From contig UBPA01000008.1 of NCBI GenBank assembly GCA_900467185.1, forward strand, positions 1 through 64,000: a stretch of DNA of 64,000 nucleotides, given 5' to 3'. Shown here piece by piece: positions 44,330 to 64,000 of the stretch. A program made the position numbers and the translations under genes. Source of the DNA: Hyphomicrobiales bacterium (GTDB taxonomy: Bacteria; Pseudomonadota; Alphaproteobacteria; Rhizobiales; Rhizobiaceae). The notes beneath the pieces are model-generated. The model had not been told where the DNA came from and did not search any database. It saw only the letters and a list, made by a program, of their open reading frames with translations. Positions within the stretch are counted from its first letter, which is position 1, and each line of letters opens with the position of its first letter.

Positions 44330-46726
44330 CTACACACTCCTGTTTGCCGCCCCACGGGGATCGTCGATCACTGTCGATACCGGGCTTTCGTCGGGTGCCA
44401 CGCCTTCGCCAGGTTTCTCCACGAGCGCTTCGGTCCGCACGCGTGTCTTCTGCGGGTCGAAATGGGGGAAGGGGACGATGGTTGCCCGGATGCGTTTCTG
44501 GTGGCCGTCGAGTTTGCCGATCTCCACCTTCGTGCCGATCTCCGCAAAGGCGATGTCGAGCCGCGCGAGTGCGATGCTGCGCCCGAGGATCGGCGATTTG
44601 ACGGCGCTGGTGACGACGCCCACCTGCGCCCGCCCGACATGCACGCCGTCGCCATGGCCGATCGGCTCGTTGCCGACGATGTCGAGGCCGACCATGCGGC
44701 GATGGGGATGGTCGCGGCGGCGCGCAATGGCGGCGTCGCCCACATAGGCGTCCGGCTTGTCCTTGGGAATGGTGAAACCGATACCGGCTTCGAACGGATC
44801 CGTCTGGTCGGAGAAATCATAGCCGGCAAAGACCAGACCCGCCTCAATGCGCACCATGTCGAGCGCGGCCAGGCCCATGGGCGTCAGTCCGTGCGGTGCG
44901 CCCGCCGCCATGACGGCATCCCAGACGATCACCGCATCCTGCGGATGACACCAGACCTCGTAGCCGAGTTCGCCGGTATAGCCGGTGCGGGACACGAGGA
45001 CCGAGCGATCGGCGATCCGGCCGATGGCGAAGCGGAACCATTTCAGCTCGGCAAGCGTCGGCTGATGCGGCGGCGTCACCATGACCGCCGCGAGGATATC
45101 GCGCGCGCGCGGCCCCTGAACGGCGATATTGTGCAGCTGATCGCTGGAATCGCGCACAAAGGCCTTCAGGCCATGCGTCTCGGCGAGGTCCCGCAGCCAG
45201 GCGCCGGAGAAGTCGTCGCCGCAGACGAAGCGGAAATTGTGCGGGCCCAGCCGGAAGATCGTGCCGTCGTCGATCATGCCGCCCGTCTCGTAGGTCAGCG
45301 GCGTATAGACGATCTGCCCGACGGCGAGCTTCTTCACATTGCGCGGTACGGCGCGCTGCAGCAGGTCTTCGGCATCCGGGCCGGTGATCTCGAACTTGCG
45401 CAGCGCGGAGAGGTCGATGATGACGGCGCGCTCGCGGCAGGCCCAGTACTCCGCGATCGGGCCGGCTTCGGTGTAGCAACTGGCCAACCAGAAGCCGCGA
45501 TAGTCCTCAAAGGTGCGCGTCAGCGCGGAGGTCCGCGGGTGGAAGCCCGTTTCGCGGCTCATGCGGGGTTCGGCATCGGGTGTCATGCGGTGGGCGCTTC
45601 CCTTTTCAAACGGACTGTCGGCATCATAGACGCGGACATGGATATCGGTCGGCACCCAGCCATTGGCCGGGTCGATATCGTCGGCGCAGGAGGACGTGGC
45701 GCAGACGAGGTCGGTCAGCGCCCGCAGGAGAACATAGTCGCCCGGCCGAGACCAGGGCTCGTCCATGGAGATCCGGTCCTGCGCATCCACGAACGTATTG
45801 TAGAAGAAATTGATGGCCGGCCAGCCCTTGCGCTCGGCAATGCCGAAAGGGGCGAGAACCCGGTTGAAGTTCTCCGTGCAGTTGGAATGGCCGGGATAGC
45901 CCATGTCCTCGTAATATTTGGCGGTGCAGGCGAGCAGGAACGTGTCGTGCCGGCCGACCGTGTCCTGCACCACCTCCACCAGAGGCCGCATGCGCGCATC
46001 GAAATATTTCGAATGGAGACCGGGGCCCGAAAAGCTCGAGCCCATCAGGGTGCGCGTGGTGGTGGGGTCGATGCCGAATTCGGCGCCCTGCGCCAGATCG
46101 CCCGCATCGAAGGCGAGGAAATCCGAGCACTGGCGGCCGTCGACATCGATGATCTGGATATATTGCCCCGCCTTGACCCGGAAGGCCGAAGCGGTCGCCG
46201 CCGCGATGCGCAGCTCCGTCACGACCTGGGGGGCGAGCGGCGGCGGGATCTCGCCGGCACGCTCCACGATCGGCAGGATCTCGACCAGAATGTCCGTCGG
46301 CGTGTCCTGCGCATCGGGTGCCATGGGCCGGCCGGGCGCGGCGACGAGGCAGAGGAGGTCGGCGCGCGCTTCCAGCGTCACGGCGGCGCCGGCCAGCGTC
46401 TCCGCGTCGAACAGGGTCGCCGATATCGGGGGTTCCTGCCGCGGCGTATCGAGGATCTGCGCGACGGCCGGGGGGATCCGGTAGGCGGTCGGGGACAGGG
46501 CCGGGGCGGGCGACAGGTTGGCGGCAAGGCCCTGCAGGCTGCCCGGCGGGCCGAAGCTGTGGATCTCGACCGGCTGCGCGCCCTCCAGATTGCGCAGCGT
46601 CACGCGGTCGCCGGGGCGAAGGGCAAGGAGGCGCGCCTCGCCGCCGCGCAGGATGGCGGAAGTCGGCCGGAGCGCCGGCACGGGCGTGCCAGTTTGCGCC
46701 GTGTCGCTCGTCCAGATCCGTGTCAT
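44330..46726 (-). CDS. tdm: Trimethylamine N-oxide demethylase (DUF1989-GcvT fusion)
   Basis: 798 residues from ATG 46726 (AGGGAG before it). The N-terminal half (about 1-385) is a DUF1989 domain, the C-terminal half (about 405-798) a GcvT/aminomethyltransferase domain that binds tetrahydrofolate. This fusion is characteristic of Tdm, which splits TMAO into dimethylamine and formaldehyde. Cys267, Cys283 and Cys347 (LLACTAK; HSNCTEN; TSSCADD) have the 16- and 64-residue spacing I recall for the zinc site of the Methylocella enzyme. Last gene of the leftward methylamine operon, 32 bases after tmm. Confidence 0.92.
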   Translation of the reverse strand: MTRIWTSDTAQTGTPVPALRPTSAILRGGEARLLALRPGDRVTLRNLEGAQPVEIHSFGPPGSLQGLAANLSPAPALSPTAYRIPPAVAQILDTPRQEPPISATLFDAETLAGAAVTLEARADLLCLVAAPGRPMAPDAQDTPTDILVEILPIVERAGEIPPPLAPQVVTELRIAAATASAFRVKAGQYIQIIDVDGRQCSDFLAFDAGDLAQGAEFGIDPTTTRTLMGSSFSGPGLHSKYFDARMRPLVEVVQDTVGRHDTFLLACTAKYYEDMGYPGHSNCTENFNRVLAPFGIAERKGWPAINFFYNTFVDAQDRISMDEPWSRPGDYVLLRALTDLVCATSSCADDIDPANGWVPTDIHVRVYDADSPFEKGSAHRMTPDAEPRMSRETGFHPRTSALTRTFEDYRGFWLASCYTEAGPIAEYWACRERAVIIDLSALRKFEITGPDAEDLLQRAVPRNVKKLAVGQIVYTPLTYETGGMIDDGTIFRLGPHNFRFVCGDDFSGAWLRDLAETHGLKAFVRDSSDQLHNIAVQGPRARDILAAVMVTPPHQPTLAELKWFRFAIGRIADRSVLVSRTGYTGELGYEVWCHPQDAVIVWDAVMAAGAPHGLTPMGLAALDMVRIEAGLVFAGYDFSDQTDPFEAGIGFTIPKDKPDAYVGDAAIARRRDHPHRRMVGLDIVGNEPIGHGDGVHVGRAQVGVVTSAVKSPILGRSIALARLDIAFAEIGTKVEIGKLDGHQKRIRATIVPFPHFDPQKTRVRTEALVEKPGEGVAPDESPVSTVIDDPRGAANRSV

Positions 46727-46758
46727 GTCGTCTCCCTCTTCCGTCCGGTCCTCCGGCT

Positions 46759-48114: not shown

Positions 48115-48181
48115 GTTCGATCTCCATGATGTCGTGAATCCGGCGGCACGCGCGCTCGCGGCGCGCCAGCGGTGGTCTGTT

Positions 48182-49315
48182 TCAGCCCTTGGCAGTGCGC
48201 TTCAGCTTTTTCGGATCGTCGAAGGGCAGGGCGTGGGCGGCGGCGGCGATCGGGCCGCTCGCATTCATCACCTGAAGCGACGTGCCGGGCACGGCGCACG
48301 CCACCGCGAGCCGGGCGATCGCCATCGATGCCCCTGTGATCGGCGAGACCATGCCGCAGGTGGCAACGCCGACCTGCCGGCCGTCCTGCATCACCGGCGC
48401 GCCCTCGTCGGCCGGCACCGTGCCGTCCAGAAGCAGGCCGAAGATCCGGAAGCGCTCGCGCCCCTTGAGGCGCGCATGCTCCTCGGCGCCGCGAAAGCCG
48501 GTCTTGCCGGGGCTGACGGTGAAGTCGAGGCCGAGCTCCCAGAGCGTGTCGCCCGGCCCCTCGTCGGCAAAGGGATATTTCTGCGAATTGTCGTAAGGGT
48601 AGAACAGCAGGTAGCTTTCCACCCGCAGCATATCGAGCGTGGTGAAGCGGCAGGGGATGATGCCCATGTCGGCACCTTCTGCGAGGATGCGATCCCAGAT
48701 CGCGGGCGCATCCTGCCCGCGGCAGAAGATCTCGTAGCCGCGCTCGCCCGTATAGCCGGTGCGCGAGATCATGACGGGCAGACCGAACAGGCGTGTCTGG
48801 AGATGATGGAAATACGGCAGGTCGCGGATGCCCGGGACGTGGTTGGCCAGATAGTCGACGGCCAGCGGACCCTGCAGCGACAGGTCATGCAGGTCGTCGT
48901 CGAAGCGGATGGAGACGTCGCGGCCGACCGCGGCCTTCTGCAGCTCCTCGTGGCCGGTGCCCGAGCCGTGCACCACCATCCAGCTGTTGGGCGAGATGCG
49001 GTAGATGATGCAGTCGTCGGTGAACTTGCCGGCGTCGTTCAGCATGCAGGCATAGGCCGACTTGCCGGGATAGATCTTCTCGACGTCGCGCGTGGTGGCG
49101 AGATCGATGACATGGGCGGCATGCGCGCCGGTGATGTGCACCTTCTTCAAGCCGGACACGTCCATCAGGCCGGCTTTCGTGCGGATCGCCAGATATTCGC
49201 GGTTGGCGTCGCCGTCATAGGACCAGGCGGTGCCCATGCCGCTCCAGTCTTCCAGCTTCGAGCCGAGTGCCCGGTGGCGGTCGGCGAGGGTCGAAAATCT
49301 CCAGGATGCCGTCAT
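48182..49315 (-). CDS. dmmD: GcvT-family protein of the dimethylamine monooxygenase cluster
   Basis: 377 residues from ATG 49315, preceded by a GGAGG site; the longer frame upstream is not protein-like. It is a tetrahydrofolate-binding GcvT fold: [43 protein letters not shown] and [13 protein letters not shown]. In dmm clusters the GcvT-like DmmD is thought to capture the one-carbon unit released by demethylation as C1-tetrahydrofolate. It follows dmmC after 49 bases and precedes tmm. Confidence 0.85.
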
Positions 49316-49364: not shown

Positions 49365-50405
49365 TCAGTCCGGCGCGAAGCCGGGCGAGGTCGGCAGGCC
49401 GTCGTCATGGCGCGATAGCCAGGCGACGGTCGTGTCGCGGAAGCGGGCGAGACCCTTGTAGTCGGCAATCGGCTGCGGCAGGCTCGCCAGGACACGGTGG
49501 AAGCGGCGCGCCCACTTCTTCTGCGTCACCAGTTCGTCCATCTTGATCAGGTAGCAGCGGATCGAGAACACGATGGCGTTGGAGCGCGGAAGCCGCCAGA
49601 GCGCCTGCAACTCGACGCGCAGATGCACCTTGTCGCCGACGTTCTCCGGGGTCACGCTCGCCTTGTCGATGCCCCAGCGGTGGTAGTTTTCCGGGCTGGT
49701 GTCGAGGCGCGGATTGATGGTCATCGTCCAGTTCAGCCGGCGCACGGGGCGGCCCTGCTGGAGGTTGAGGAGGAACTTCAGAGCACGCTCGAAGACGCCG
49801 AGATCATGCGCCAGCGGCACGGGCGCGTGCCACTCCATGAAGTTCATGCCGAGGTCGAAATCGAGCGACCAGTCGGCCTGCGTCGTCACCATGCCCGCAT
49901 CCATCCAGAGATTGTCGTCCCGCTGGTCGAGCAGGCAGAAATCCCCCTGGCACTGGCGGGTGATATATTCCATCGGCCCCTGCGGCAGGGTTGAGGCATC
50001 GCCGAAGGTGAACGTCTGGTCGAGCCCGAGCGGCCGGTTGATCCAGTGCCAGCGGTTGCCGTCGCGGGTCAGGGTGAAGGTCTCGGGATAATGCGTCGAC
50101 ATCGACGTCATCAGCAGTTCCACGAGATCCCATTCCGCCGTCATCATGTGCGGCAGCGACTGGCAGCGCAGCGGGTCCTGCGCGAGCGTGATCGCGCGGT
50201 CCTGCATCTCGGCCACGTAGTGCTCGTCGATATGGATCGGAAATTCGGTCGCCGACTGCACCGGGCCCGGCACGTGCTGCTCGATATTGACCGTATAGGT
50301 GTAGTCGTCACGCTCGAAGGGAAAGGGAAACGCCCGGATCGCCGTCGGGCTGTTGGCGAAGGTGTAATCGTCGCGGAAGGTCTCGGCATTGAACGAAAGG
50401 GTCAT
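49365..50405 (-). CDS. dmmC: Heme-dependent oxidative N-demethylase subunit (DUF3445), dimethylamine monooxygenase
   Basis: 346 residues, DUF3445 family: PFPFERDDYTYTVNI, IDEHYVAEMQDR, QGDFCLLDQRDD, WHAPVPLAHDLG and RWGIDKASVTPEN. The family includes the heme-bearing subunit of the oxidative N-demethylase that turns dimethylamine into monomethylamine and formaldehyde. Subunit letters differ between descriptions; I use A-B-C-D in gene order. GGAG precedes ATG 50405, and the reductase gene ends 12 bases upstream. Confidence 0.85.
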   Translation of the reverse strand: MTLSFNAETFRDDYTFANSPTAIRAFPFPFERDDYTYTVNIEQHVPGPVQSATEFPIHIDEHYVAEMQDRAITLAQDPLRCQSLPHMMTAEWDLVELLMTSMSTHYPETFTLTRDGNRWHWINRPLGLDQTFTFGDASTLPQGPMEYITRQCQGDFCLLDQRDDNLWMDAGMVTTQADWSLDFDLGMNFMEWHAPVPLAHDLGVFERALKFLLNLQQGRPVRRLNWTMTINPRLDTSPENYHRWGIDKASVTPENVGDKVHLRVELQALWRLPRSNAIVFSIRCYLIKMDELVTQKKWARRFHRVLASLPQPIADYKGLARFRDTTVAWLSRHDDGLPTSPGFAPD

Positions 50406-50417: not shown

Positions 50418-51383
50418 TCACAGGTCGAGCACGAGTTCGCGGCCACGCAGCCGCGAGACGCAGGTCATGATGGTTTGGCCGCAGGATTTCTGGCTGTCCG
50501 TCAGGTAATGGTCGGCATGGAGGAGATCACCATCAGCGACGAGCACCCGCGTTTCGCACTGGCCGCACGCACCGCCCCGGCAAAGGTAGGGCGCATCCAC
50601 ACCGGCCGCCTCGATGGCCTCAAGCAGGGTCTCGTGTTCGCCGACCACGGTGGAAATGCCGGAGCGCGCAAGCCGCAGGGCGAAGGGCTCGCCACCGTCC
50701 GGCGCAAGGAAGCGCTCGGCATGCAGCGCGCTCTCCGGCCATCCGGCGGTCCGTGCGTCGGCCAGCACGCCCTCGATCATGCGCTCGGGCCCGCACACGT
50801 AAAGATGCGTTCCGAGCGGCTGGCGGTCGAGGATATCGCGAACCGATAGCCGCTCCTGTCTCTCGCTGACGTAAAGATGCAGTCGGTCGCCATGCCGGGC
50901 CGTAAGCTCGGCGGCAAAGGCGCCGCTTGCGGTATCACGCATGGCGTAATGCAGCTCGAAGGGCAGGTCGAGGGCCGCAAGCTCTGCCGCCATGGCCGCA
51001 ATGGGCGTGATGCCGATGCCGCCGGCCACCAGGATATGGCGACGGGCCGTGCGGTTGACGGGAAAGAGATTGATCGGCGCCGACAGGTTTAGTGCCGTGC
51101 CGACGGTCAGGTGATCGTGGATGAAGGCCGAGCCGCCGCGCGACTGCGGGCTGCGCAGCACGGCAACTTCGTAGGCCGCGCCGCCGGCCAGCGTCGAGCC
51201 AAGCAGCGAATAGGCATTGCGGATGAGGCGGGTGCCGCCATCGAGCGTCAGCACCGTATGGGACCCGGCCGAGTAGGGCGGCAGGGCCTGCCCGTCGCGC
51301 CGGGCCAGCCGCAGCCGCTTGACGGTCGGCGACAGGGCCTCGGTCTCGATCACCCGCACGGGATACTGGACGCCGCCGCTCAT
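50418..51383 (-). CDS. dmmB: Ferredoxin reductase subunit of dimethylamine monooxygenase (PDR/VanB type)
   Basis: 321 residues. FMN-binding barrel with RNAYS (55-59), nucleotide domain GGIGITP (121-127) and CGPERM (198), then a C-terminal plant-type 2Fe-2S domain with Cys268, Cys273, Cys276 and Cys308 (LCRGGACGQCE; MTCVS). It passes electrons from NAD(P)H to the oxygenase subunit. The start overlaps the stop of the small subunit gene by four bases (ATGA). Confidence 0.9.
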   Translation of the reverse strand: MSGGVQYPVRVIETEALSPTVKRLRLARRDGQALPPYSAGSHTVLTLDGGTRLIRNAYSLLGSTLAGGAAYEVAVLRSPQSRGGSAFIHDHLTVGTALNLSAPINLFPVNRTARRHILVAGGIGITPIAAMAAELAALDLPFELHYAMRDTASGAFAAELTARHGDRLHLYVSERQERLSVRDILDRQPLGTHLYVCGPERMIEGVLADARTAGWPESALHAERFLAPDGGEPFALRLARSGISTVVGEHETLLEAIEAAGVDAPYLCRGGACGQCETRVLVADGDLLHADHYLTDSQKSCGQTIMTCVSRLRGRELVLDL

Positions 51384-51988
51384 GCGCCGAAGGCCTCTGC
51401 CGGCGGGATCTCGCCCGGCGCCTCGGCATCGATGCACACGCCCATGAAGGCGCCGAGGCGTCGGGAATAATGGTCGCGCACCAGAAGGTAGAGACCGCAC
51501 TGGGAACACACAGTCGGGCTTGCCGCCACCCCGTCGGTGAAGCCCTTGCAATGAACGCACTGGACGCGGCGCGTCGGGGCGCCGCGATGCTCCGTCTGGA
51601 TCGCATCGGCATCGATGCCCCTCTGCAGGGCCTCGCTCCTGGCGCGGCCGATGAAATCCTCGCTGCCGCTGATGTAGAGCCGCGTTCCCATGGTCGCCGA
51701 AGACAGCGTCGTTGCGAGTTCAGCCAGCAGGTCCTCGACGCCCGATGCGACATGCAGGGCCTCGCAGGAAAGGGACGCCAGATCCGTCGCCGGCCGGCGA
51801 TCGGCGCTGCGCGGTGCCGGCGAGAAAAGGATGCTCGTGCGAGCGAGGGCGTCGTGGCCGCGAAAGGCGTCGGTCACGGCCGAGGCACCCTCGCCCTCGG
51901 CAAGGACGATATGCCGCGTCGCCTGGCGAACCGGTGCGAGCGTGCCGTAGAGCGGGCGGCTTCTGATCGGGGTAGGCTGCATGGTCAT
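51380..51988 (-). CDS. dmmA: Dimethylamine monooxygenase small subunit (DmmA-like, zinc-ribbon C-terminus)
   Basis: 202 residues from ATG 51988. The first about 135 residues form an alpha/beta part (RLYISGSEDFIGRAR); the end has a zinc ribbon with Cys144, Cys147, Cys161 and Cys164 (CVHCKGF; CSQCGLYLLVRDHYSRR). The pattern fits the DmmA-like family linked to heme-dependent N-demethylases. The start is chosen because the reading frame before it is a shadow of the permease gene. Coupled to dmmB by a four-base overlap. Confidence 0.85.
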   Translation of the reverse strand: MTMQPTPIRSRPLYGTLAPVRQATRHIVLAEGEGASAVTDAFRGHDALARTSILFSPAPRSADRRPATDLASLSCEALHVASGVEDLLAELATTLSSATMGTRLYISGSEDFIGRARSEALQRGIDADAIQTEHRGAPTRRVQCVHCKGFTDGVAASPTVCSQCGLYLLVRDHYSRRLGAFMGVCIDAEAPGEIPPAEAFGA

Positions 51989-52059: not shown

Positions 52060-53772
52060 TCAGGCGCTGAAGAACCAGTTGGACAGGAACACCACGGCCA
52101 CGCCGGCAACGAGCGTGAGATAGGGGAGGATGCCGGCCTTGCGGTGCATGGTTTGTCCGGGCTTCACGCCGAGATCTTCCAGCATTTGCGCCGGGAACTG
52201 TCCGCGATCCTGGATGTAGTGGCGGAAGAAGAAGACCGGGATGATCAGCGCGGCGGTGATGATGCCCGCCCACAGCGCCATCGGGTTCCAGACCTTGGCG
52301 CCGGCCCCCATGAAGACGGCATTGAGGAAGGCGAAGATGCCGCCGAGCGCCAGGAGAACGGTCGGCGCCCGGTAGGGTCGCGCGATATGCCCGGAGTCGA
52401 TCCGGTGCAGCCAGCCGGCGTTCAGGTTGAGAAAGTTGAAGATGATGTAGCCGCAGTTCGACACCGCGAGGATGAAGAAGAAGCTGGTCGCATCGGCGCA
52501 GGCGATCGCCAGCACGACGAGGTTGACGATCAGATCCGTCCACATGGCCCGCGTCGGCGCGCCGTGTTCGTTGACGTGGGAGAGATATTTCGGCAGCCAG
52601 CCATCGACGGAGCCCTGGTAGAGCGTGCGCGAGGATCCGGCCATCGCCGTCATGAGGCAGAGCATCAGGGCGAGGATCATCAGCATGACCAGCAGGCTTT
52701 CGATCAAGGCGCCGCCGCCCACCATGTGCGCCATGGCCGCCGCGACGCCCGAGCCATCGACGATCGGCGTGGCGAGCATGCCGTTCAGCCCGAGGACCCC
52801 CTGGAAGGTGAAGGGAACGAGGCTGAACAGCGCCAGGCAGAGAAGGCCCGAGAAGAAGATGGCCTTGAACGTATCTTTGCCGGGATCGCGAAACTCGCTC
52901 GTGTAGCACACGGCGGTTTCAAAGCCGTAGGTCGACCATGCCGCGATGAACATGCCGCCCAGCACGAGCGTCCAGCCGGCGATGTCCCAGGCACCCGGTT
53001 CCGGCGCATAGGCGGTGGCGAGCGGCACGAGCGGCGAGAAGTTCGACCATGTGACGCCGCCGGTGACGAGCGGCACGACCCCGACGATGACCATGGGGAT
53101 GATGACGACGAGGCCGATATATTTCTGCACCTTGGCGGTCCCGAGAATGCCGCGGTGCTGCACGGCGAAGGTGACGAGCATCAGGATGGCGCCGATGAAG
53201 AAGGCCGCGTTGAGCGAGAGCGAAACGGGCCCGAGCGTCGTCTGGAAGAGCGTCCAGGTGCGGATGGACGGCGTCAGCGCAGAGACGGCGGCGGCCGCCT
53301 TTTCCGCGTCGGGCACCGTCAGCGTCGCACCGTTGGCGGCGATCCAGTCGATAACGGCGGCGCTGTCGACGGCCGGCACGGGCGCGAGCGCGTTGAGGAT
53401 ATAGGCGGCGGCGATCGAGCAGCCGAGCGAGAGCACGGGCGACCAGGCAAACCAGTTACACCAGACCGACAGCGGCGCGATGGGCTTGGCATAGCGCACC
53501 CAGGCCGAGGCGCCGTAGATCGATGCGCCGCCCGATTTGTTGGGGAAGAGGCCGGCGATCTCGGCATAGGTGAAGGACTGGATGAACCCCATGATCATGG
53601 AGACGATCCAGACCGCGAAGGCGAGCGTGCCCACCGTGCCGGCGATGCCGCCGATGGAGAAGAGGACCAGCGCCGGCACGCCGCTTGCGACCCAGAAGGC
53701 GCCCGTCCAGTTGATGCTACGATGCAGTTTTCCCGGCTCCGAAAGCTCGGAGCTTATGACCGTTGTCGACAT
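52060..53772 (-). CDS. APC-superfamily amino acid/amine permease
   Basis: 570 residues from ATG 53772 (GGGGA before it). About twelve membrane segments; GGIAGTVGTLAFAVWI and EIAGLFPNKSGGASIYGA mark the first APC repeat. A long, Ala-rich periplasmic loop lies near 130-180. The frame upstream of the start is Arg/Pro-rich and not coding. First gene of the leftward operon with dmmABCD, tmm and tdm, so it likely brings in a methylated amine or exports/imports a gamma-glutamyl intermediate. Which of these is unknown; no TMAO ABC importer (TmoXWV) is in the window. Confidence 0.88.
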   Translation of the reverse strand: MSTTVISSELSEPGKLHRSINWTGAFWVASGVPALVLFSIGGIAGTVGTLAFAVWIVSMIMGFIQSFTYAEIAGLFPNKSGGASIYGASAWVRYAKPIAPLSVWCNWFAWSPVLSLGCSIAAAYILNALAPVPAVDSAAVIDWIAANGATLTVPDAEKAAAAVSALTPSIRTWTLFQTTLGPVSLSLNAAFFIGAILMLVTFAVQHRGILGTAKVQKYIGLVVIIPMVIVGVVPLVTGGVTWSNFSPLVPLATAYAPEPGAWDIAGWTLVLGGMFIAAWSTYGFETAVCYTSEFRDPGKDTFKAIFFSGLLCLALFSLVPFTFQGVLGLNGMLATPIVDGSGVAAAMAHMVGGGALIESLLVMLMILALMLCLMTAMAGSSRTLYQGSVDGWLPKYLSHVNEHGAPTRAMWTDLIVNLVVLAIACADATSFFFILAVSNCGYIIFNFLNLNAGWLHRIDSGHIARPYRAPTVLLALGGIFAFLNAVFMGAGAKVWNPMALWAGIITAALIIPVFFFRHYIQDRGQFPAQMLEDLGVKPGQTMHRKAGILPYLTLVAGVAVVFLSNWFFSA

Positions 53773-54934: not shown

Positions 54935-54941
54935 TTGCCTT

Positions 54942-54960
54942 AAAAGAAAAAAAGTTTCTT
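54942..54960. promoter_or_regulatory. Second copy of the candidate XRE-cupin operator, before mgsA
   Basis: AAAAGAAAAAAAGTTTCTT contains AAGAAA-N5-TTTCTT and aligns with the site at 54026-54044 at 16 of 19 bases. It lies in the 88-base gap between the regulator gene and mgsA, so it could control mgsABC-gmaS separately. Confidence 0.5.
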
Positions 54961-55981: not shown

Positions 55982-56668
55982 ATGCCGACATTCGATCTGT
56001 CCTCCACGCCGCTGCGCGACCTCAACAGTGCCCTCCACACGCTGTCCAAGGGCGCCAACGACACGGCCTTCGACGTCGTCAATCCGCGCGGTGCCCATGC
56101 GGTCGCCGTCGGCATCGATGCGCCCGTCACCGTCGAGGTGCGCGGTTCCGTCGGCTACTACTGCGCCGGCATGAACGATGGCGGCATCGTCACCGTCCAC
56201 GGTTCGGCAGGGCCGGGGGTCGCCGAAAACATGATGTCGGGCACCGTCGTCATCGAGGGCGATGCCAGCCAGTATGCCGGCGCCACGGGGCAGGGCGGCC
56301 TGCTCGTCATCAAGGGCAATGCGGCCTCGCGCTGCGGCATTTCCATGAAGGGCATCGATATCGTCGTCCATGGCAATATCGGCCATATGTCGGCCTTCAT
56401 GGGCCAGTCGGGCCATCTCGTGGTGCTGGGCGACGCGGGCGATGCGCTGGGCGACAGCCTCTACGAGGCGAAGCTGTTCGTGCGCGGCACCGTAAAGAGC
56501 CTGGGTACCGACTGCATCGAGAAGCCGATGCGGCCGGAACATCTGGAGACCTTGCGCGGGCTGCTCGACAGGGCGGGCGTCACCGATGCGACGCCGCAGG
56601 AGTTCCGGCGCTACGGTTCGGCGCGGACGCTCTACACGTTCAACATCGACAATGCCGACGCGTATTGA
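55982..56668 (+). CDS. mgsB: N-methylglutamate synthase subunit B (GXGXG domain)
   Basis: 228 residues. Right-handed beta-helix of the glutamate-synthase alpha C-terminal type, seen as repeated turns: VEVRGSVGYYCAGMNDGG, VHGSAGPGVAENMMSG, IEGDASQYAGATGQGG and IKGNAASRCGISMKG. Structural subunit between the amidotransferase and the FMN subunit. A 56-base gap separates it from mgsA. Confidence 0.92.
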   Translation: MPTFDLSSTPLRDLNSALHTLSKGANDTAFDVVNPRGAHAVAVGIDAPVTVEVRGSVGYYCAGMNDGGIVTVHGSAGPGVAENMMSGTVVIEGDASQYAGATGQGGLLVIKGNAASRCGISMKGIDIVVHGNIGHMSAFMGQSGHLVVLGDAGDALGDSLYEAKLFVRGTVKSLGTDCIEKPMRPEHLETLRGLLDRAGVTDATPQEFRRYGSARTLYTFNIDNADAY

Positions 56669-56686: not shown

Positions 56687-58015
56687 ATGAGCTATCACAA
56701 CCCCTATACCCCGCCGCGCAAGTCGGCGACCTTCGATGATGCGACGCTGGCCGAGATCCGCCGCGCCGCCGCCACCGGCATCTACGACATTCGCGGGGCA
56801 GGCACGAAGCGCAAGCTGCCCCATTTCGACGACCTCCTGTTTCTCGGCGCCTCGATCTCGCGCTATCCGCTCGAAGGCTACCGGGAGAAATGCGACACCT
56901 CCGTCGTGCTCGGCACGCGGTTCGCCAAAAAGCCCATCCGCCTGAAGACACCGATCACCATTGCCGGCATGTCGTTCGGGGCCCTTTCCGGCAACGCCAA
57001 GGAAGCGCTCGGCCGCGGTGCGACGATCGCCGGCACCTCGACCACCACGGGCGACGGGGGCATGACCGACGAGGAGCGCGGGCACAGCGAGATGCTGGTC
57101 TACCAGTATCTGCCCTCGCGCTACGGCATGAACCCGCGCGACCTGCGCCGGGCCGATGCGATTGAGATCGTCATCGGGCAGGGCGCCAAGCCCGGCGGCG
57201 GCGGCATGCTGCTCGGCCAGAAGATTTCCGACCGCGTTGCCCAGATGCGCAACCTGCCGAAGGGCATCGACCAGCGCTCGGCCTGCCGCCACCCCGACTG
57301 GACCGGCCCGGACGATCTGGAGATCAAGATCCTCGAACTGCGCGAGATCACCGACTGGGAAAAGCCGATCTATGTGAAGGTCGGCGGCTCCCGCCCCTAT
57401 TACGACACGGCGCTGGCCGTGAAGGCCGGTGCCGATGTGGTGGTGCTCGACGGCATGCAGGGCGGAACGGCGGCGACGCAGGACGTCTTCATCGAGAATG
57501 TCGGCATGCCGATCCTCGCCTGCATCCGCCCGGCCGTCCAGGCGCTGCAGGATCTCGGGCTTCACCGCAGCGTGCAGCTCATCGTCTCCGGCGGCATCCG
57601 CTCGGGCGCGGATGTGGCGAAGGCCCTGGCGCTCGGCGCCGATGCGGTCGCCATCGGCACGGCCGCGCTGGTGGCGCTCGGCGACAACGACCCGAAATGG
57701 GAAGACGAGTACCAGAAGCTCGGCACGACGGCCGGCGCCTATGACGACTGGCACGAGGGCAAGGACCCGGCCGGCATCACCACGCAGGACCCGGAGCTGG
57801 CCGCCCGCCTCGACCCGGTGGCGGCCGGACGGCGCCTTGCCAACTACCTCAAGGTCATGACGCTGGAGGCGCAGACGATCGCGCGCGCCTGCGGCAAGAA
57901 CCACCTGCACAATCTGGAGCCCGAGGACCTCTGCGCGCTGACGATGGAAGCGGCCGCCATGGCGCAGATCCCGCTCGCCGGCACCAGCTGGTATCCGGGC
58001 AAGGGAGGATTTTGA
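56687..58015 (+). CDS. mgsC: N-methylglutamate synthase subunit C (FMN-binding glutamate synthase domain)
   Basis: 442 residues, TIM-barrel glutamate-synthase domain: ITIAGMSFGALSGNAKEALG, TGDGGMTDEERG, IVIGQGAKPGGGGML, KVGGSRPYYDTALAVKAGAD and SGGIRSGADVAKALALGADAVAIG (FMN-phosphate loop). It carries the FMN at which the 2-iminoglutarate-type intermediate is reduced. Follows mgsB after 18 bases. Confidence 0.93.
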   Translation: MSYHNPYTPPRKSATFDDATLAEIRRAAATGIYDIRGAGTKRKLPHFDDLLFLGASISRYPLEGYREKCDTSVVLGTRFAKKPIRLKTPITIAGMSFGALSGNAKEALGRGATIAGTSTTTGDGGMTDEERGHSEMLVYQYLPSRYGMNPRDLRRADAIEIVIGQGAKPGGGGMLLGQKISDRVAQMRNLPKGIDQRSACRHPDWTGPDDLEIKILELREITDWEKPIYVKVGGSRPYYDTALAVKAGADVVVLDGMQGGTAATQDVFIENVGMPILACIRPAVQALQDLGLHRSVQLIVSGGIRSGADVAKALALGADAVAIGTAALVALGDNDPKWEDEYQKLGTTAGAYDDWHEGKDPAGITTQDPELAARLDPVAAGRRLANYLKVMTLEAQTIARACGKNHLHNLEPEDLCALTMEAAAMAQIPLAGTSWYPGKGGF

Positions 58016-58163: not shown

Positions 58164-59471
58164 GTGACACTGGATCTCTCGACCTATGCCGCCGAACACG
58201 GCATCCGCTATTTCATGATCAGCTATACCGATCTTTTCGGCGCCCAGCGCGCCAAGCTCGTGCCGGCGCAGGCCATCGCCGACATGCAGGCCGATGGCGC
58301 CGGCTTCGCGGGCTTTGCGACCTGGCTCGACCTGTCGCCGGCCCATCCCGATCTCTTCGCCCTGCCGGATCCGTCCTCCGTCATCCAGCTGCCGTGGAAG
58401 AAGGACGTGGCCTGGGTGGCGGCCGATTGCCGGATGGACGACAAGCCGCTCGACCAGGCGCCGCGCGTGCTGTTGAAGCGGCTGGTGGCGGAAGCCGCCG
58501 AGATGGGGCTCAGGGTCAAGACCGGCGTCGAGCCCGAGTTCTTCCTCACCACCGCGGACGGGTCCGTGATTTCCGACGTTTACGACACGGCGGAAAAGCC
58601 CTGCTACGACCAGCAGGCGGTCATGCGGCGGTTCGACGTGATCGCCGAGATCTGCGATGCCATGCTCGAGCTTGGCTGGAAGCCCTATCAGAACGACCAT
58701 GAGGACGCGAACGGCCAGTTCGAGATGAACTGGGAATATGACGATGTGCTTGCCACGGCCGACAAGCACTCCTTCTTCAAGTTCATGGTCAAGTCCATCG
58801 CCGAGAAGCACGGGCTGCGCGCCACCTTCATGCCGAAGCCGTTCAAGGGGCTGACCGGCAATGGCTGCCACGCCCATATCTCCGTCTGGGATCTCGCCGG
58901 CAAGACCAATGTCTTTGCCGATGCCGATATGCCTTTCGGTTTGTCGGCCACCGGCAAGACCTTCCTCGGCGGCATTATGAAACATGCCTCGGCGCTCGCC
59001 GCCATCACCAATCCCACCGTCAATTCCTACAAGCGCATCAACGCGCCGCGCACCGTGTCCGGGGCCACATGGGCGCCGAACACCGTGACATGGACCGGCA
59101 ACAACCGCACGCATATGGTGCGCGTTCCCGGTCCCGGCCGCTTCGAGCTTCGCCTGCCGGACGGCGCCGTCAACCCCTACCTGTTACAGGCAATTATCCT
59201 TGCCGCCGGCATGTCGGGCATGCGCACCAAGGCCGATCCGGGCCCGCACCACGATATCGACATGTACCGCGAGGGCCATACGGTGACCAACGCGCCGCGG
59301 CTGCCGCTGAACCTGCTCGACGCGCTGCGCGACTACGAAAAGGACGAGGCGCTGCAGGCGGCGATGGGCCGGGACTTCTCCGCCGCCTATCTCAAGCTGA
59401 AGCATGGCGAGTGGACGAGCTATTGCAGCCATTTCACCGCCTGGGAGCGCGAAACCACGCTGGACATCTAG
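58164..59471 (+). CDS. gmaS: Gamma-glutamylmethylamide synthetase (glutamine synthetase type III family)
   Basis: 435 residues from GTG 58164, preceded by AAGGGGAAC. Glutamine-synthetase fold: beta-grasp start, GVEPEFFLTT (metal Glu), FEMNWEYDD, GNGCHAHISVWD (ATP/metal His), NSYKRINAPRTVSGATW and the Arg-rich end of the site RTHMVRVPGPGRFELRL. GMAS-type enzymes ligate methylamine to glutamate with ATP, giving gamma-glutamylmethylamide. The neighbouring mgs and mgd genes make this assignment much more likely than plain glutamine synthetase. Confidence 0.92.
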   Translation: MTLDLSTYAAEHGIRYFMISYTDLFGAQRAKLVPAQAIADMQADGAGFAGFATWLDLSPAHPDLFALPDPSSVIQLPWKKDVAWVAADCRMDDKPLDQAPRVLLKRLVAEAAEMGLRVKTGVEPEFFLTTADGSVISDVYDTAEKPCYDQQAVMRRFDVIAEICDAMLELGWKPYQNDHEDANGQFEMNWEYDDVLATADKHSFFKFMVKSIAEKHGLRATFMPKPFKGLTGNGCHAHISVWDLAGKTNVFADADMPFGLSATGKTFLGGIMKHASALAAITNPTVNSYKRINAPRTVSGATWAPNTVTWTGNNRTHMVRVPGPGRFELRLPDGAVNPYLLQAIILAAGMSGMRTKADPGPHHDIDMYREGHTVTNAPRLPLNLLDALRDYEKDEALQAAMGRDFSAAYLKLKHGEWTSYCSHFTAWERETTLDI

Positions 59472-59530
59472 GGTCTCGGATCCGCCGTCCCCTCGACATC
59501 AACCCCGCACCCCCAAGGAAAGGACGCCTC

Positions 59531-60415
59531 TTGAACCCGTTCGTCCTCACCGTCACCTGCACATCGCGGCGCGGCATCGTTGCCGCCATCTCGACCTATC
59601 TCGCCGACCAGCACTGCAACATCGTTGACAGCGCCCAGTTCGACGACCTTGAGACCGGTCGCTTCTTCATGCGCATCGGGTTTCGCTCGGAAGACGGCCT
59701 GCCGCTCGACGCGATCGCGGCCGGCTTTGCCGCGATTGCCGAACCTTTCGCCATGGACTACCGCTTCCACGATCCGGCCGCGCCGATGAAGGTCGTGCTG
59801 ATGGTGTCGCGCTTCGGACACTGCCTCAACGACATTCTCTACCGCTGGAAGATCGGCGCCCTGCCGATCGAGATCGTCGCCGTGGTTTCCAACCATTTCG
59901 ACTACCAGAAGGTGGTCGTCAACCACGACATTCCCTTCCACCATATCCCCGTGACCAAGGCCAACAAGCCGGAGGCGGAGGCGCGGATTCTCTACCTCAT
60001 CGAGCAGTCCGGCGCCGATCTCGTCGTGCTCGCCCGCTATATGCAGGTTCTCTCGGATGCCATGTGCGCGCGCATGCCGGGCCGGATCATCAATATCCAT
60101 CACTCTTTCCTGCCAAGCTTCAAGGGCGCGAACCCCTACAAACAGGCCTATGGCCGTGGCGTGAAGCTGATCGGCGCGACGGCGCATTATGTGACGGCGG
60201 AACTCGACGAAGGCCCGATCATCGAGCAGGACGTGGCTCGCATCACCCATGCGCAAAGTGCTGCCGACTACGTCTCCATCGGCCGGGACGTCGAGGCGCA
60301 GGTGCTGTCGCGCGCCATCCACGCGCATATCCATCACCGCGTCTTCCTCAACGGCAACCGCACCGTCGTCTTTCCGGCAAGCCCCGGCGGCTACGCCTCC
60401 GAGCGGATGGGCTGA
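59531..60415 (+). CDS. purU: Formyltetrahydrofolate deformylase
   Basis: 294 residues from TTG 59531, which has AAGGA-like sequence at proper spacing. An N-terminal ACT domain (about 1-80) precedes the formyltransferase-type hydrolase domain with INIHHSFLPSFKGANPY (catalytic His) and AELDEGPIIEQD (catalytic Asp). It hydrolyses 10-formyl-THF to formate and THF. In methylamine clusters it returns THF for Tdm, DmmD and Mgd and passes C1 on as formate. 59 bases after gmaS. Confidence 0.93.
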   Translation: MNPFVLTVTCTSRRGIVAAISTYLADQHCNIVDSAQFDDLETGRFFMRIGFRSEDGLPLDAIAAGFAAIAEPFAMDYRFHDPAAPMKVVLMVSRFGHCLNDILYRWKIGALPIEIVAVVSNHFDYQKVVVNHDIPFHHIPVTKANKPEAEARILYLIEQSGADLVVLARYMQVLSDAMCARMPGRIINIHHSFLPSFKGANPYKQAYGRGVKLIGATAHYVTAELDEGPIIEQDVARITHAQSAADYVSIGRDVEAQVLSRAIHAHIHHRVFLNGNRTVVFPASPGGYASERMG

Positions 60416-60425
60416 CGCCCCTCAT

Positions 60426-60530
60426 CGGTTTCCGGTCTGATCGCTTTGTGAACCGGAAACAAGAACCATCGAGCATCTCTGGCCGGAAGGCCAGATTTTC
60501 AATGGACGGACTACGGTTTCCGGTCTGATC
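60426..60530. terminator. Convergent terminator region with 17-bp direct repeat
   Basis: CGGTTTCCGGTCTGATC occurs at 60426-60442 and again at 60514-60530. Each copy starts a hairpin: GTTTCCGGT with ACCGGAAAC (near 60428-60460), and ACGGTTTCCGG with CCGGAACCGT (near 60513-60543). Between them lies CTGGCC-GGAA-GGCCAG (60479-60494) followed by ATTTT, a good rho-independent terminator for purU. The stack stops transcription from both sides. Confidence 0.75.
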
Positions 60531-60543
60531 AGCCGGAACCGTA

Positions 60544-61095
60544 TCAGTCTTCGAGAAACTCTGCGCTCATGCGGGCGAGGTCGTCCCACAGGCTCTGGGC
60601 GAAGCCGCGCAGGACCATGATCTCGAAGGCCTCGTCTCCGATACGGGTGACATGGGCGGCGATGTGGCCGACGAGCGTCGTCGTGGCCTCTCCCACCGGA
60701 AAGCGCGTCAAGGCGAGATCGACTGCCGTGCCCTTGGCCAGCATCCGCTCGACCATCGGGCCGCTTGCCCGGATACGGACACGGCCCGCACTCTGGTCCA
60801 CGCCGAAAGCCTCTGGCTGAAGAGCGGCGAGAATGTCGCCAAGCTCGGCATGCGTCTTCGCCCGGTCGCCGACGATGAACCACTGACCGGGACCGGCCGC
60901 ACGCACCGCCTGCGGCGCGCCGTCGGAAAGGGGCGCAAGCCGTTCCATCGCAAGCGGGGCGTGGGGCGTGCCCAGCACCTGGATGACGTGCCCCTCCGGC
61001 AGCGCCTCCAGCCGGATCGCCCGGCTGACAAGGCGCGTGCAGCCCCGAAGCGCCGGCTGTGGTGTGAGGGGGCGTGTGATGCGAAGATCAGACAT
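60544..61095 (-). CDS. mgdD: N-methylglutamate dehydrogenase subunit D (sarcosine oxidase gamma family)
   Basis: 183 residues, SoxG-like. FIVGDRAKTHAELGDIL, DQSAGRVRIRASGPMVERML and AVDLALTRFPVGEATTTLVGHI are typical. Heterotetrameric sarcosine-oxidase-like enzymes next to mgs and gmaS are N-methylglutamate dehydrogenases, which regenerate glutamate and load the methyl group on THF. Overlaps mgdC by 8 bases. Confidence 0.88.
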   Translation of the reverse strand: MSDLRITRPLTPQPALRGCTRLVSRAIRLEALPEGHVIQVLGTPHAPLAMERLAPLSDGAPQAVRAAGPGQWFIVGDRAKTHAELGDILAALQPEAFGVDQSAGRVRIRASGPMVERMLAKGTAVDLALTRFPVGEATTTLVGHIAAHVTRIGDEAFEIMVLRGFAQSLWDDLARMSAEFLED

Positions 61096-64000
61096 GAAGC
61101 TTCTCGTTTCCCGGATCGACGAACACCGGGTCGCAGAGGCGCCCGGGTGTGAATTCGTTGCGGATGCCGTTCCAGATCATCACCGCCTCGCCGTGACGCT
61201 CTGCGCCGCGCGTGACAAGCGCAAGCCCGATGGTCGATCCGACATGGGGCGAATAGGCGCTGGATGTGACATAGCCCTGGTCGTTTTCGAGCGTCGCCGC
61301 GGCGCCCTGTGCCAGAATATGCGATCCCGTGCGGAAGGACGTCGTCGGGTCGAGCGGCAGGACGCCGACGAGCTGCGCACGCTCCGGGTCGACGAGGCCC
61401 GGACGCCCGACCATGGCCTTGCCGATGAAATCGGGCTTGGTGGTCGAGACCATCTTGCCGAAACCGAGATCGGCGGCCGTCGCCGTGCCGTTGATCTCGT
61501 TGTGGGTGACGTGCCCCTTCTCGATGCGCAGCACGCCCAGCGCCTCCACGCCATAGGGCTGAATGCCGTGCGGCGCGCCGGCCTCCATGAGGGCCTCGGC
61601 AACGCTCTCGCCATAGCCGGCGGGCACGGCCAGCTCATAGGCGAGTTCGCCGGAAAACGAGATGCGGAAGAGGCGTCCGTGCAGCGCGCGGCCGAACAGC
61701 GAGACCTCGCGGGCGGCCAGAAAAGGGAAGGCGTCGTTGGACAGATCCTCGTTCACGATCGTCTGCAGGATGAGACGCGCCTTCGGCCCCGCGATCGCCA
61801 TCTGCGCCCATTGGTCGGTGGAAGAGGCGAGGCGCACGTCGAGATCCGGCCACAGGACCTGCGCGCAGTATTCGAGATGGTTCATCACCCCGGCGGCATA
61901 GGCCGTCGTGGTGGTCATGACATAGTGGTTCTCCGACAGGCGGCTCGTCGTGCCGTCGTCGTAGATCATTCCATCCTCGCGCAGCATCAGGCCGTAGCGC
62001 GCCTTGCCGACCGGCAGCTTCAGGAAGGCGTTCGAATAGACGCGGTTGAGAAATTCCGCGGCATCGTGGCCACAGATCTCGATCTTGCCGAGCATGGAGA
62101 CGTCGCACAGCCCGGCATGGGCACGCACGTTCAGCACTTCGCGATCGACGCTCTCGCGCCAGGAGGTTTCGCCGACGCGCGGGAAGAAGGAGGAGCGGTA
62201 CCAGAGACCGGTCTCCACGAAGGTTGCGCCAAGACGGCGCGCCCAGTCGTGCAGCGGCGAGCGGCGCACGGGCTGGAAATCATGACCGTGATGCGGCCCG
62301 GCGAGCGCACCGAAGGACACCGGCGTATAGAACGGCCGGAAGGTCGTGGTGCCGACATCGGCCGGCGATATCCCCCGCGCTTCCGCCAGAAGGCCGATGG
62401 CGTTGACGTTGGAAAGCTTGCCCTGATCGGTCGCCATGCCGTTGGTCGTGTAGCGCTTGGCGAGCTCCACATGGCCGTAGCCTTCCTGAACGGCGAGGTC
62501 GAGATCGCCCCGGTGCACGTCGTTCTGGAAATCGACGAAGGCTTTGCCCCTGACGCCGGGCACGGTCCAGAGCGGTCTTGCCGGGACAGGGTTCGGAGCC
62601 GAGACGATATCGCCCTCGACGGTGCCGAAGGTTGCCGGGGTCGCGTTGAAAGACATCTGTTCGAGGAGCGCCGTGGCCGTCCGTGCGCCCTCCGCAAGGC
62701 AGGCGGCGATGCCGGCCGTGGTGGCGACGGCACCGGCGAGATCGAGGCCGACGAGATCGCCGGGCGCCAGAAAGGCCGACTGCGCGTCCGACCATTGCGG
62801 CTTGCCGCCGCGATGGCAGGCGAGATGGATGATTGGGCTGAAGCCGCCGGCCATGGCCAGCGCATCCACCTTCACCGTTTCCGTCTGACCGTTCCGGAGC
62901 ACCGTTATGGCGGAGAGCGCCTTCCCGCCCTGCGCATCGGAAACGACGGCGCCTGTGACGATGCGCGCCTTGCCGGCGTAGGAAGGGGAGGCGTCCGCCC
63001 GGCTGTCGACGATGATCTCGGGTACGATGCCTTGCGCTTCCAGGTCGGCCGCCAGCGCATAGCCGCTGTCATTGCTGGTGAAGATCGCGACCTGCCGGCC
63101 GGGCGCGACGCCGTAGCGGTTGAGATAGGTGCGCATGGCGCCCGCCATCATGACGCCGGGAATGTCGTTGCCGCCGAAGACGAGCGGCCGCTCTTCCGCA
63201 CCGGTTGCGAGCAGCGCTTTCTGCGCGACGATGCGCCAGAGCCGCTCCACGGGCCGGGCGGCGGCGGGCACGCGAACATGCTTCTGCACGCGCTCGACAG
63301 CCCCGAAGACTTGGCCGTCATACCAGCCGACGGCGGTAGTGCGCAGCAGGATGGTGACGTTTTCGAGCGCCTCCAGCTCGGCCATCGTCTGCGCCACGAA
63401 TGCCGGCGCCGGCAGTCCGCCGATCCGCGCCGTCTCTGACAACAGCGTGCCGCCGGCCGCCGCGTGCTCGTCCACCAGAATGACCCGGGCGCCCGCCCGC
63501 CCGGCCGTCAACGCCGCGGCCAGACCGGCCGGGCCCGCGCCGATCACGAGCAGGTCGCAATGCGCCCAGCATTTCTCGTAAGCGTCCGGGTCCGCCACGT
63601 GGGCAGCCGTGCCGAGGCCGGCGGCCTTGCGGATGAAGGGCTCGTAGAGCTTTTCCCACAGCGGCGCCGGCCACATGAAGGTCTTGTAGTAGAAGCCTGC
63701 CCCCAGAAAGGGCGAGAGGAGGCCGTTCAGAGCACCGATATCGAAGGCGAGCGACGGCCAGCGGCTCTGGCTGCGCGCTTCGAGCCCGTCATAAAGCTCC
63801 TGCATCGTCGCGCGGGTGTTGGCCTCGGTGCGGCCGTCCCGTCCGATCGTCATGAGGGCATTCGGCTCTGCGGCACCGGCCGTCAGAATGCCGCGCGGCC
63901 GGTGATACTTGAAGCTGCGGCCGACGAGCAGCCGGCCGTTGGCAAGCAGGGCCGAGGCGAGGCTGTCGCCGGCATAGCCCGTGAGCGGCTTGCCGTCGAA
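61088..64000 (-). CDS. mgdC: N-methylglutamate dehydrogenase subunit C (sarcosine oxidase alpha family), cut by window edge
   Basis: The frame is open from base 64000 (971 codons, start outside). At the edge it reads FDGKPLTGYAGDSLASALLA and GRSFKYHRPRGILTAGAAEPN, the N-terminal ferredoxin-like part. Then come a dinucleotide-binding domain (LVIGAGPAGLAAALTAGRAG), a second one (GRQVAIFTSNDSGYALA) and, from about residue 600, a GcvT domain that binds THF (CDVSMLGKIEICGHDAAEFL; SFSGELAYELAVPAGYG). Subunit alpha of the heterotetramer. mgdA and mgdB are expected just to the right. Confidence 0.93.
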   Translation of the reverse strand, partial: FDGKPLTGYAGDSLASALLANGRLLVGRSFKYHRPRGILTAGAAEPNALMTIGRDGRTEANTRATMQELYDGLEARSQSRWPSLAFDIGALNGLLSPFLGAGFYYKTFMWPAPLWEKLYEPFIRKAAGLGTAAHVADPDAYEKCWAHCDLLVIGAGPAGLAAALTAGRAGARVILVDEHAAAGGTLLSETARIGGLPAPAFVAQTMAELEALENVTILLRTTAVGWYDGQVFGAVERVQKHVRVPAAARPVERLWRIVAQKALLATGAEERPLVFGGNDIPGVMMAGAMRTYLNRYGVAPGRQVAIFTSNDSGYALAADLEAQGIVPEIIVDSRADASPSYAGKARIVTGAVVSDAQGGKALSAITVLRNGQTETVKVDALAMAGGFSPIIHLACHRGGKPQWSDAQSAFLAPGDLVGLDLAGAVATTAGIAACLAEGARTATALLEQMSFNATPATFGTVEGDIVSAPNPVPARPLWTVPGVRGKAFVDFQNDVHRGDLDLAVQEGYGHVELAKRYTTNGMATDQGKLSNVNAIGLLAEARGISPADVGTTTFRPFYTPVSFGALAGPHHGHDFQPVRRSPLHDWARRLGATFVETGLWYRSSFFPRVGETSWRESVDREVLNVRAHAGLCDVSMLGKIEICGHDAAEFLNRVYSNAFLKLPVGKARYGLMLREDGMIYDDGTTSRLSENHYVMTTTTAYAAGVMNHLEYCAQVLWPDLDVRLASSTDQWAQMAIAGPKARLILQTIVNEDLSNDAFPFLAAREVSLFGRALHGRLFRISFSGELAYELAVPAGYGESVAEALMEAGAPHGIQPYGVEALGVLRIEKGHVTHNEINGTATAADLGFGKMVSTTKPDFIGKAMVGRPGLVDPERAQLVGVLPLDPTTSFRTGSHILAQGAAATLENDQGYVTSSAYSPHVGSTIGLALVTRGAERHGEAVMIWNGIRNEFTPGRLCDPVFVDPGNEKLHV

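Follow-up and report, generated by a model that had tools for sequence, protein, structure and literature searches.

Gene content of the locus

The window analysed here, a 64,000-nucleotide stretch from a Hyphomicrobiales bacterium of the Rhizobiaceae (contig UBPA01000008.1, positions 1 to 64,000), carries between 44.3 and 64 kb a gene set for the breakdown of trimethylamine (TMA): tdm, tmm, dmmDCBA, tmoP, a gene for an XRE-cupin regulator, mgsABC, gmaS, purU, mgdD and mgdC (Table 1). The TMA arm occupies the minus strand and reads, between 53.8 and 44.3 kb in descending order, tmoP, dmmA, dmmB, dmmC, dmmD, tmm, tdm. The plus strand carries, between 54.3 and 60.4 kb, the XRE-cupin gene followed by the N-methylglutamate (NMG) arm with mgsA, mgsB, mgsC, gmaS and purU, and to the right of purU lie, again on the minus strand, mgdD and then mgdC, which runs past the window end. 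The contig spans 115,179 bases and continues with the start of mgdC, mgdB (SoxD family), mgdA (SoxB family) and then a divergent AraC/GbdR-type gene. Upstream of both arms lies a 25-bp operator-like element with the core RGAAA-N5-TTTCY. With high confidence, we read this region as a complete aerobic locus for methylated amines, mosaic in ancestry, that would supply nitrogen and energy and whose arms are probably linked by the element.

Proteins were assigned with NCBIfam/TIGRFAM models at their curated cut-offs, together with Pfam. The Tmm, Tdm and DmmA-family proteins all exceed their cut-offs and are co-located, and all eight genes of the NMG pathway (gmaS, mgsABC, mgdABCD) were found, with mgdB and mgdA outside the window. 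A first-pass annotation, made from the window sequence alone, had named tmm, tdm, dmmABCD, gmaS, mgsABC, mgdCD and purU, and family matches place each of them where it had been drawn; tmoP had been overlooked. The annotation had also expected mgdAB just to the right of the window, where extension of the contig revealed both genes, so that their absence is rejected. The single regulator it saw between the arms is the XRE-cupin gene, to which the AraC/GbdR-like gene beyond the window adds a second.

The predicted enzymes retain features of characterized homologs. Tdm aligns over residues 25-765 of 798 with the solved trimethylamine N-oxide (TMAO) demethylase 9q59. The Zn/Fe-site residues of Methylocella silvestris Tdm, D198, C263, H276, C279 and C343 (PMC12560246), correspond at a constant offset of 4 to D202, C267, H280, C283 and C347, which are invariant in 16 aligned Tdm sequences. 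F487 and L618 of the M. silvestris enzyme are said to disturb folate binding (PMC12560246), and their counterparts F491 and L622 are kept here, which makes formaldehyde the likely product. For dimethylamine (DMA), dmmABC of Ruegeria was enough for demethylation in Escherichia coli, while growth on TMA and TMAO needs dmmD (PMC5520151). DmmC matches the solved haem-dependent oxidative N-demethylase (HODM) 5lte (E 3.6e-140), an enzyme for which an open-access literature search gave no paper. Solved bacterial flavin/trimethylamine monooxygenases align with Tmm across residues 2-445 of its 451, and GmaS has solved homologs in 7cql and 9qur, of which 9qur bears the name glutamate--methylamine ligase; the predicted GTG start of gmaS at 58164 agrees with stops immediately upstream in four relatives.

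The flavin monooxygenase, GcvT and type III glutamine synthetase families are functionally broad, and these enzymes, including the DUF1989 protein, could in principle act on other N-methylated or amine substrates, in which case the locus would not be for TMA. We regard this as very improbable, given that the scores of Tdm, Tmm and the permease lie above the equivalog cut-offs of models for TMA/TMAO functions and that the whole set sits with the NMG pathway, as it does where the genes were tested (PMC5520151, PMC4543880). Activity of the locus on TMA, TMAO and DMA in this strain is a prediction.

Table 1. Features of the methylated-amine locus (window coordinates unless marked as contig; scores in bits, cut-off in brackets)
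Feature	Description	Position	Strand	Match and remarks
tdm	TMAO demethylase, 798 aa, DUF1989 + GCV_T domains	44330..46726	-	NF053776 1275.6 (1100)
tmm	trimethylamine monooxygenase, 451 aa	46759..48114	-	NF058570 829.4 (675)
dmmD	GcvT-like folate-domain partner of DMA demethylase	48182..49315	-	GCV_T PF01571 199.4 (25.6); predicted start MTASWRF
dmmC	HODM alpha-like subunit	49365..50405	-	PF11927 239.6 (25)
dmmB	ferredoxin/flavin reductase subunit	50418..51383	-	ferredoxin-reductase families, below equivalog cut-offs; predicted start MSGGVQYP
dmmA	DmmA subunit	51380..51982	-	NF041259 111.3 (60), PF22290/PF22289; predicted start MQPTPIRS
tmoP	TMAO permease, APC type	about 52060..53772	-	NF053774 892 (690)
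element 1	operator-like, divergent tmoP/regulator spacer	54020..54044	+	0 mismatches to derived pattern
XRE-cupin	regulator gene	54260..54934	+	HTH_3 56.2, Cupin_2 50.5; predicted GTG start at 54260
element 2	operator-like, immediately 5′ of mgsA	54936..54960	+	2 mismatches to pattern; matrix score 31.1
mgsA	glutamine-amidotransferase-type subunit of NMG synthase	55026..55925	+	GATase_6 76 (27)
mgsB	GXGXG subunit	55982..56668	+	PF01493 41.1 (32.5)
mgsC	glutamate-synthase-type FMN subunit	56687..58015	+	Glu_synthase PF01645 296.9 (20.4)
gmaS	gamma-glutamylmethylamide synthetase	58164..59471	+	type III glutamate-ammonia ligase TIGR03105 664.7 (469.6); predicted GTG start
purU	formyl-tetrahydrofolate deformylase	59540..60415 (start approximate)	+	TIGR00655 335.9 (286)
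mgdD	SoxG-like subunit of NMG dehydrogenase	60544..61095	-	SoxG 33.9 (21)
mgdC	SoxA-like subunit, cut by window end	61088..64000	-	TIGR01372 1444.8 (1164), whole gene
mgdB	SoxD family	contig 64060-64353		SoxD 103 (27)
mgdA	SoxB family	contig 64377-65627		TIGR01373 725.7 (529)
AraC/GbdR-like	regulator gene, divergent from mgdA	contig 65724-66707	+	AraC HTH domains; best family GbdR, below cut-off

Ancestry of the two arms

The species marker and the genes of the TMA arm place this genome differently. In an RpoB tree of 24 genomes it falls within an 11-row clade (support 100/100), apart from Aureimonas and genome G088, in agreement with the rhizobial host proposed by the first-pass annotation. 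This clade defines what we call core Rhizobiaceae; we further included R. johnstonii and Shinella by name and assumed, without RpoB, that G127, G057, G028 and G083 are core. Two genomes with fragmentary rpoB matches (L092, L093) were excluded from the RpoB and Tdm trees, and the Aminobacter Tdm row contains a stop. Holding the RpoB of the window genome, its congener G094 and Neorhizobium lilium together with Aureimonas and G088 was rejected by the approximately unbiased test (p-AU 1.95e-43), as was holding the three as a trio (p-AU 7.5e-5), and the window genome and N. lilium are not sisters. In the trees of Tdm (99/98) and Tmm (99/97) these same three nest with Aureimonas sp. Leaf427 and G088, and in that of DmmC they group with Aureimonas and G088 (94/92). 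Monophyly of the core Rhizobiaceae is rejected for Tdm (p-AU 3.8e-4), Tmm (4.7e-10), DmmC (6.7e-7) and TmoP (6.6e-7) and is not rejected for GmaS (0.54) and MgsC (0.21). To allow for the mixing of further family members in the Tmm and Tdm trees, the trio was constrained to the other main clade (15 rows) in a narrower test, and this too was rejected (Tmm 0.0038; Tdm 1.5e-6). The Tdm tree was already known when the clade tests on arm genes were made, and the groups of the narrower test were named once their trees were known.

Pairwise identities, computed after removal of rows with less than 60% coverage, follow the same division. Tdm, Tmm, DmmD, DmmC, DmmB and TmoP share 75-90% identity with two Aureimonas and G088, versus 48-74% with ten core members, while DmmA barely discriminates (55-56% versus 48-54%). 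GmaS is 80-88% identical to core members and 84% to Aureimonas Leaf427 and G088, and the MgdA tree places the window protein with core members. On these comparisons the locus is a mosaic, in which GmaS and MgsC are of the core Rhizobiaceae type and Tdm, Tmm, DmmC and TmoP are not. The TMA arm conflicts with the one species marker used and with the neighbouring arm, as would be expected for lateral acquisition; the transfer would have run from an Aureimonas-like lineage.

Several results weigh against so simple a division. PurU is closest to Aureimonas Leaf427 (86%), and the MgdA tree rejects the whole core set as well (0.0013), with G083 outside it and Aureimonas Leaf427 and Thalassospira inside. 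The Tmm tree also mixes other Rhizobiaceae, Aminobacter standing with G045, G117 and G084, which means that the window does not account for all of the core-clade rejection. The XRE-cupin tree (12 rows) gives no clear placement, TmoP forms a polytomy near the window even though its clade test rejects, and the species placement itself comes from a single marker, RpoB. One alternative is that no transfer took place, and that this lineage inherited by descent an ancient second version of the TMA arm, which other core Rhizobiaceae lost. Unrooted gene trees do not separate gain from loss, the family has both versions of the arm, and occurrence is patchy: among 151 family genomes, own genome included, Tmm exceeds its cut-off in 23 and Tdm in 28, and a GmaS relative (E up to 1e-80) is present in 45. 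Descent would, however, require many parallel losses, as the window genome and N. lilium are not RpoB sisters; the nesting with Aureimonas and G088 in the Tdm and Tmm trees, the high identity of six of the seven arm proteins and the strong RpoB separation of the trio from Aureimonas and G088 likewise speak for another history. We therefore consider descent unlikely and favor lateral acquisition of the TMA arm. In the titles, abstracts and passages viewed, an open-access literature search found no report of transfer of this pathway in rhizobia, and only unrelated papers on trimethylamine with Aureimonas or Neorhizobium.

The combination of both arms is shared with relatives. Among stretches fetched around Tdm from 28 relatives, G094, of the same genus, carries every gene in identical order (18 genes compared, identity 78-99%), and G128, G069, G022, G073 and G147 likewise contain both arms; stretch ends truncate single genes in them, and not every one has tmoP, purU or both regulators. 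The idea of a unique compact locus is rejected on this basis, and the comparison does not support rarity of the locus. Among the best 80 of 578 named Tdm relatives the nearest is that of N. lilium (83%). N. lilium 24NR and Aureimonas sp. Leaf427 (Tdm identity 75%) share the TMA arm order, the XRE-cupin and AraC-type genes and the mgs and mgd genes, but their mgd genes adjoin tdm, whereas those of the window adjoin purU. A record titled 'Mycobacterium sp. KBS0706' (NZ_VCCH02000032.1) holds a Rhizobium-type cluster of tmoP, tdm, XRE-cupin, mgsABC, gmaS, dmmDABC and tmm; its title or assembly is probably wrong.

The replicon context fits the transferability that had been suggested for the locus, as does the foreign-looking TMA arm. 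Tdm relatives (E up to 1e-100) occur on 139 plasmid records, of which 95 are Rhizobium, and the G094 locus and repC lie on one 708-kb contig. In the window genome repC lies on three other contigs, so that an extrachromosomal place of the locus is here only inferred. Plasmid records H2-H40 show that large Rhizobium plasmids of legume-nodule and root origin often carry Tdm relatives, which where annotated are mostly labelled 'DUF1989 domain-containing protein'; in two plasmid records the best place has 95-99% identity.

Around the locus, window and G094 align over 44.3-73.3 kb and over parts of 25-36 kb, while the 80 kb of G094 that were compared have no counterpart of the block at 36.4-43.9 kb. 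In this block, beside the locus, are TRAP transporter genes (39418-42328, plus strand) and a LysR regulator gene (42849-43946, minus strand), and about 8 kb away a 530-aa isocitrate-lyase-family protein is encoded (34756-36348; PF00463, 158 bits). The segment 25100-32700 holds a GH127 beta-L-arabinofuranosidase-like gene, sugar ABC transporter genes and a LacI regulator gene, kept in G094 in a different arrangement. On the other side, contig 66.7-74.7 kb (11736-19701 of the right-hand continuation, L005) carries an exonuclease-X-like gene, a HutC-type repressor gene, ABC transporter genes, a histidine-ammonia-lyase-like gene and a LysR regulator gene.

An operator-like element upstream of both arms

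Alignment of the spacer between tmoP and the XRE-cupin gene from six genomes leaves one conserved block in otherwise diverged sequence, which is element 1 of Table 1. With up to three mismatches allowed, the derived pattern has one further match in the 64 kb, element 2, directly 5′ of mgsA, and none in the right-hand continuation L005. A matrix built from the six spacer sites, among which element 2 is not included, was then scored on gene-upstream sequence from other genomes, with 300 column-permuted matrices as controls. Gene starts were taken from alignments, and regions that shared more than 170 bases with another pathway gene or ran off the stretch were excluded from the first counts. Held-out upstream regions score above all 300 permutations for mgsA (8 regions), dmmD (16), dmmA (5), tmm (11) and tmoP (15), but not for tdm (2 regions, 10/300), mgdA (6 regions, 6/300) or the XRE-cupin gene (7 regions, 6/300). 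In 20 further loci none of the 300 permuted matrices reaches the mgsA regions either; the best site stands 70-82 bases 5′ of mgsA in 16 of them, and in 15 an XRE-cupin gene lies at most 4 kb upstream of mgsA. Among the mgsA regions, those of G084 (10.0) and Methylobacterium (12.0) score lowest. In 16 further mgdA upstream regions there is no element signal (129/300 permutations reach the mean).

The two arms are probably tied together by this common element, and its most likely reader, judging by position, is the XRE-cupin protein. The mgd operon, in turn, is probably under the AraC-type gene that adjoins it and diverges from mgdA; this gene is comparable with the regulator TmaR of Ruegeria in its position and its AraC HTH domains. 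Some findings count against a shared operator. The number of matches in the window is ordinary (0.62 expected; two or more in 13 of 100 shuffles), only their position being notable, and low scores occur (dmmD of G022, 1.8; tmm of Jiella, -0.9; tmoP of Aminobacter, -2.5). In G045 and G009 the element lies 5′ of mgsA with no XRE-cupin gene in the 20 kb read. Some upstream regions serve two divergent genes (for example mgsA/dmmD of G147), so the regions are not all independent, and permutation retains composition but not every property of AT-rich promoters.

A second explanation could be that the element is the site of an AraC/GbdR-type, TmaR-like regulator, or an AT-rich promoter feature, rather than an XRE-cupin site. 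Promoters in GC-rich genomes are AT-rich, and G045 and G009 fit a reader other than the XRE-cupin protein. Ruegeria TmaR, of AraC type, binds the promoters of tmm, tdm, dmm, gmaS-mgs and mgd (PMC13390433). Yet mgdA, which lies beside the AraC-type gene and is a reported TmaR target, is the very gene without the element in the 16 further regions, and in the six others the element is at most weak; for an AT-rich feature, permuted matrices of the same composition fail to reproduce the signal. We give this explanation a substantial chance, somewhat short of even. The words XRE, cupin and motif are absent from the text of the TmaR paper (PMC13390433), and an open-access literature search showed no described XRE regulator or operator of this pathway in the titles, abstracts and passages viewed.

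Returning to the XRE-cupin protein as reader, a wider proposal can tentatively be made, which we hold to be rather less probable than not: that RGAAA-N5-TTTCY with an extra TTC half-site, read by the XRE-cupin protein whose gene usually precedes mgsA, defines a methylated-amine regulon across several alphaproteobacterial orders. With one element common to TMA and NMG arms that are inherited separately, a foreign TMA arm set beside a resident NMG arm would then fall under the resident switch at once. If true, such capture would account for an exchange of the arms as modules, with mgd left to the AraC-type regulator. Binding of the element by the XRE-cupin protein would also mean a further regulator of methylated-amine use in addition to TmaR and TmoR, and the shared element offers a directly testable regulatory link between the arms.

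Predicted route, carbon fate and known systems

In the proposed route Tmm would oxidize TMA to TMAO, or TMAO would be imported through TmoP, and Tdm would convert it to DMA and formaldehyde. DmmABC, a haem/HODM-type demethylase with its reductase, would then yield monomethylamine (MMA), with DmmD as folate partner, and GmaS and MgsABC would pass MMA to N-methylglutamate. MgdABCD would oxidize this back to glutamate, delivering the methyl carbon to methylene-tetrahydrofolate (methylene-THF), which FolD, assumed to be a housekeeping enzyme, and PurU would convert to formate. Formate dehydrogenase and glutathione-dependent formaldehyde dehydrogenase, encoded elsewhere, would complete the oxidation. 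The TMA arm (tdm to tmoP), from an Aureimonas-like lineage, would have been set beside an NMG arm of the host-family type and be coupled to it through the common element, read by the XRE-cupin protein encoded between them, with mgd under the AraC-type gene. The first-pass annotation credited the locus with every carbon step. This holds for the route from TMA through TMAO, DMA and MMA to N-methylglutamate and for PurU, but is slightly overstated, as no folD was seen among the open reading frames assigned in 44.3-66.7 kb; no genome-wide folD search was made.

For C1 oxidation from methylene-THF to formate and CO2, PurU and formate dehydrogenase (963 bits, cut-off 666) are found in the genome, as is glutathione-dependent formaldehyde dehydrogenase (587 bits, cut-off 544). 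Fae was searched in six genomes, with matches in Aureimonas, Methylobacterium and Methylocella and none in the window genome, G094 or N. lilium, and formaldehyde handling by Fae is rejected for this genome. Formate-THF ligase has no match in the window genome, other serine-cycle genes not having been searched for, and only a fragment below the cut-off in G094; it exceeds the cut-off in N. lilium, Aureimonas, Methylobacterium and Methylocella. The missing matches to formate-THF ligase and Fae favor a gain of nitrogen and energy, the methyl carbon being burned, over methylotrophic growth, although serine synthesis from methylene-THF may be compatible with the data. Of the nitrogen or carbon use suggested by the annotation, nitrogen with energy is accordingly likelier and a carbon source less likely. 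For its further suggestions of choline-derived amines and gut-like habitats nothing was found, and no search aimed at TMA sources was made.

The pathway and its clustering are already known from Methylocella, Ruegeria, Paracoccus and Aminobacter. In Methyloversatilis, a putative regulator that clusters with the pathway genes increases on methylamine (PMC5023235), and in Rhodobacteraceae, including strain KarMa, an XRE-family gene is marked in the pathway cluster (PMC7574528). The Ruegeria pomeroyi cluster SPO1548-1588 (PMC5520151, PMC13390433) covers the same enzymatic steps, and its AraC-type TmaR adjoins mgd (PMC13390433), comparable to the AraC-type gene here, whereas an ABC transporter, TmoXWV, stands where the window has an APC permease, and the GntR-type TmoR for tmm is unlike the window. 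A SAR116 member has been proposed to have received dmmDABC by transfer (PMC5520151). Paracoccus aminophilus, in which dmm mutants were tested, carries tmm, tdm, dmmDABC, mgsABC-gmaS and mgdABCD together on plasmid pAMI6 (PMC4543880), as they are co-located here, and the same paper discusses transferable replicons as carriers of methylotrophy genes in Paracoccus (PMC4543880); P. aminovorans has a comparable gene set on a 40-kb island (cited in PMC8235418). A serine cycle and folD-purU pairs are reported for Paracoccus, in contrast to the lack of a formate-THF ligase match in the window genome and of folD among the genes seen in the locus.

Aminobacter has tmm, tdm, tmoP, dmmDABC, gmaS, mgsABC, mgdABCD and purU in common with the window (PMC8235418), but differs in that a serine cycle is reported for it, and A. 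aminovorans KCTC 2477 has its demethylation genes on the chromosome and its NMG genes on plasmid pAA01 (PMC8235418). Relative to these systems, the present locus places the whole route from TMA to ammonium, mostly discussed for marine bacteria, in a rhizobial genome and offers a concrete case of a pathway apparently assembled from a foreign and a resident half. Its additions to the known systems are this mosaic origin and the predicted shared operator.

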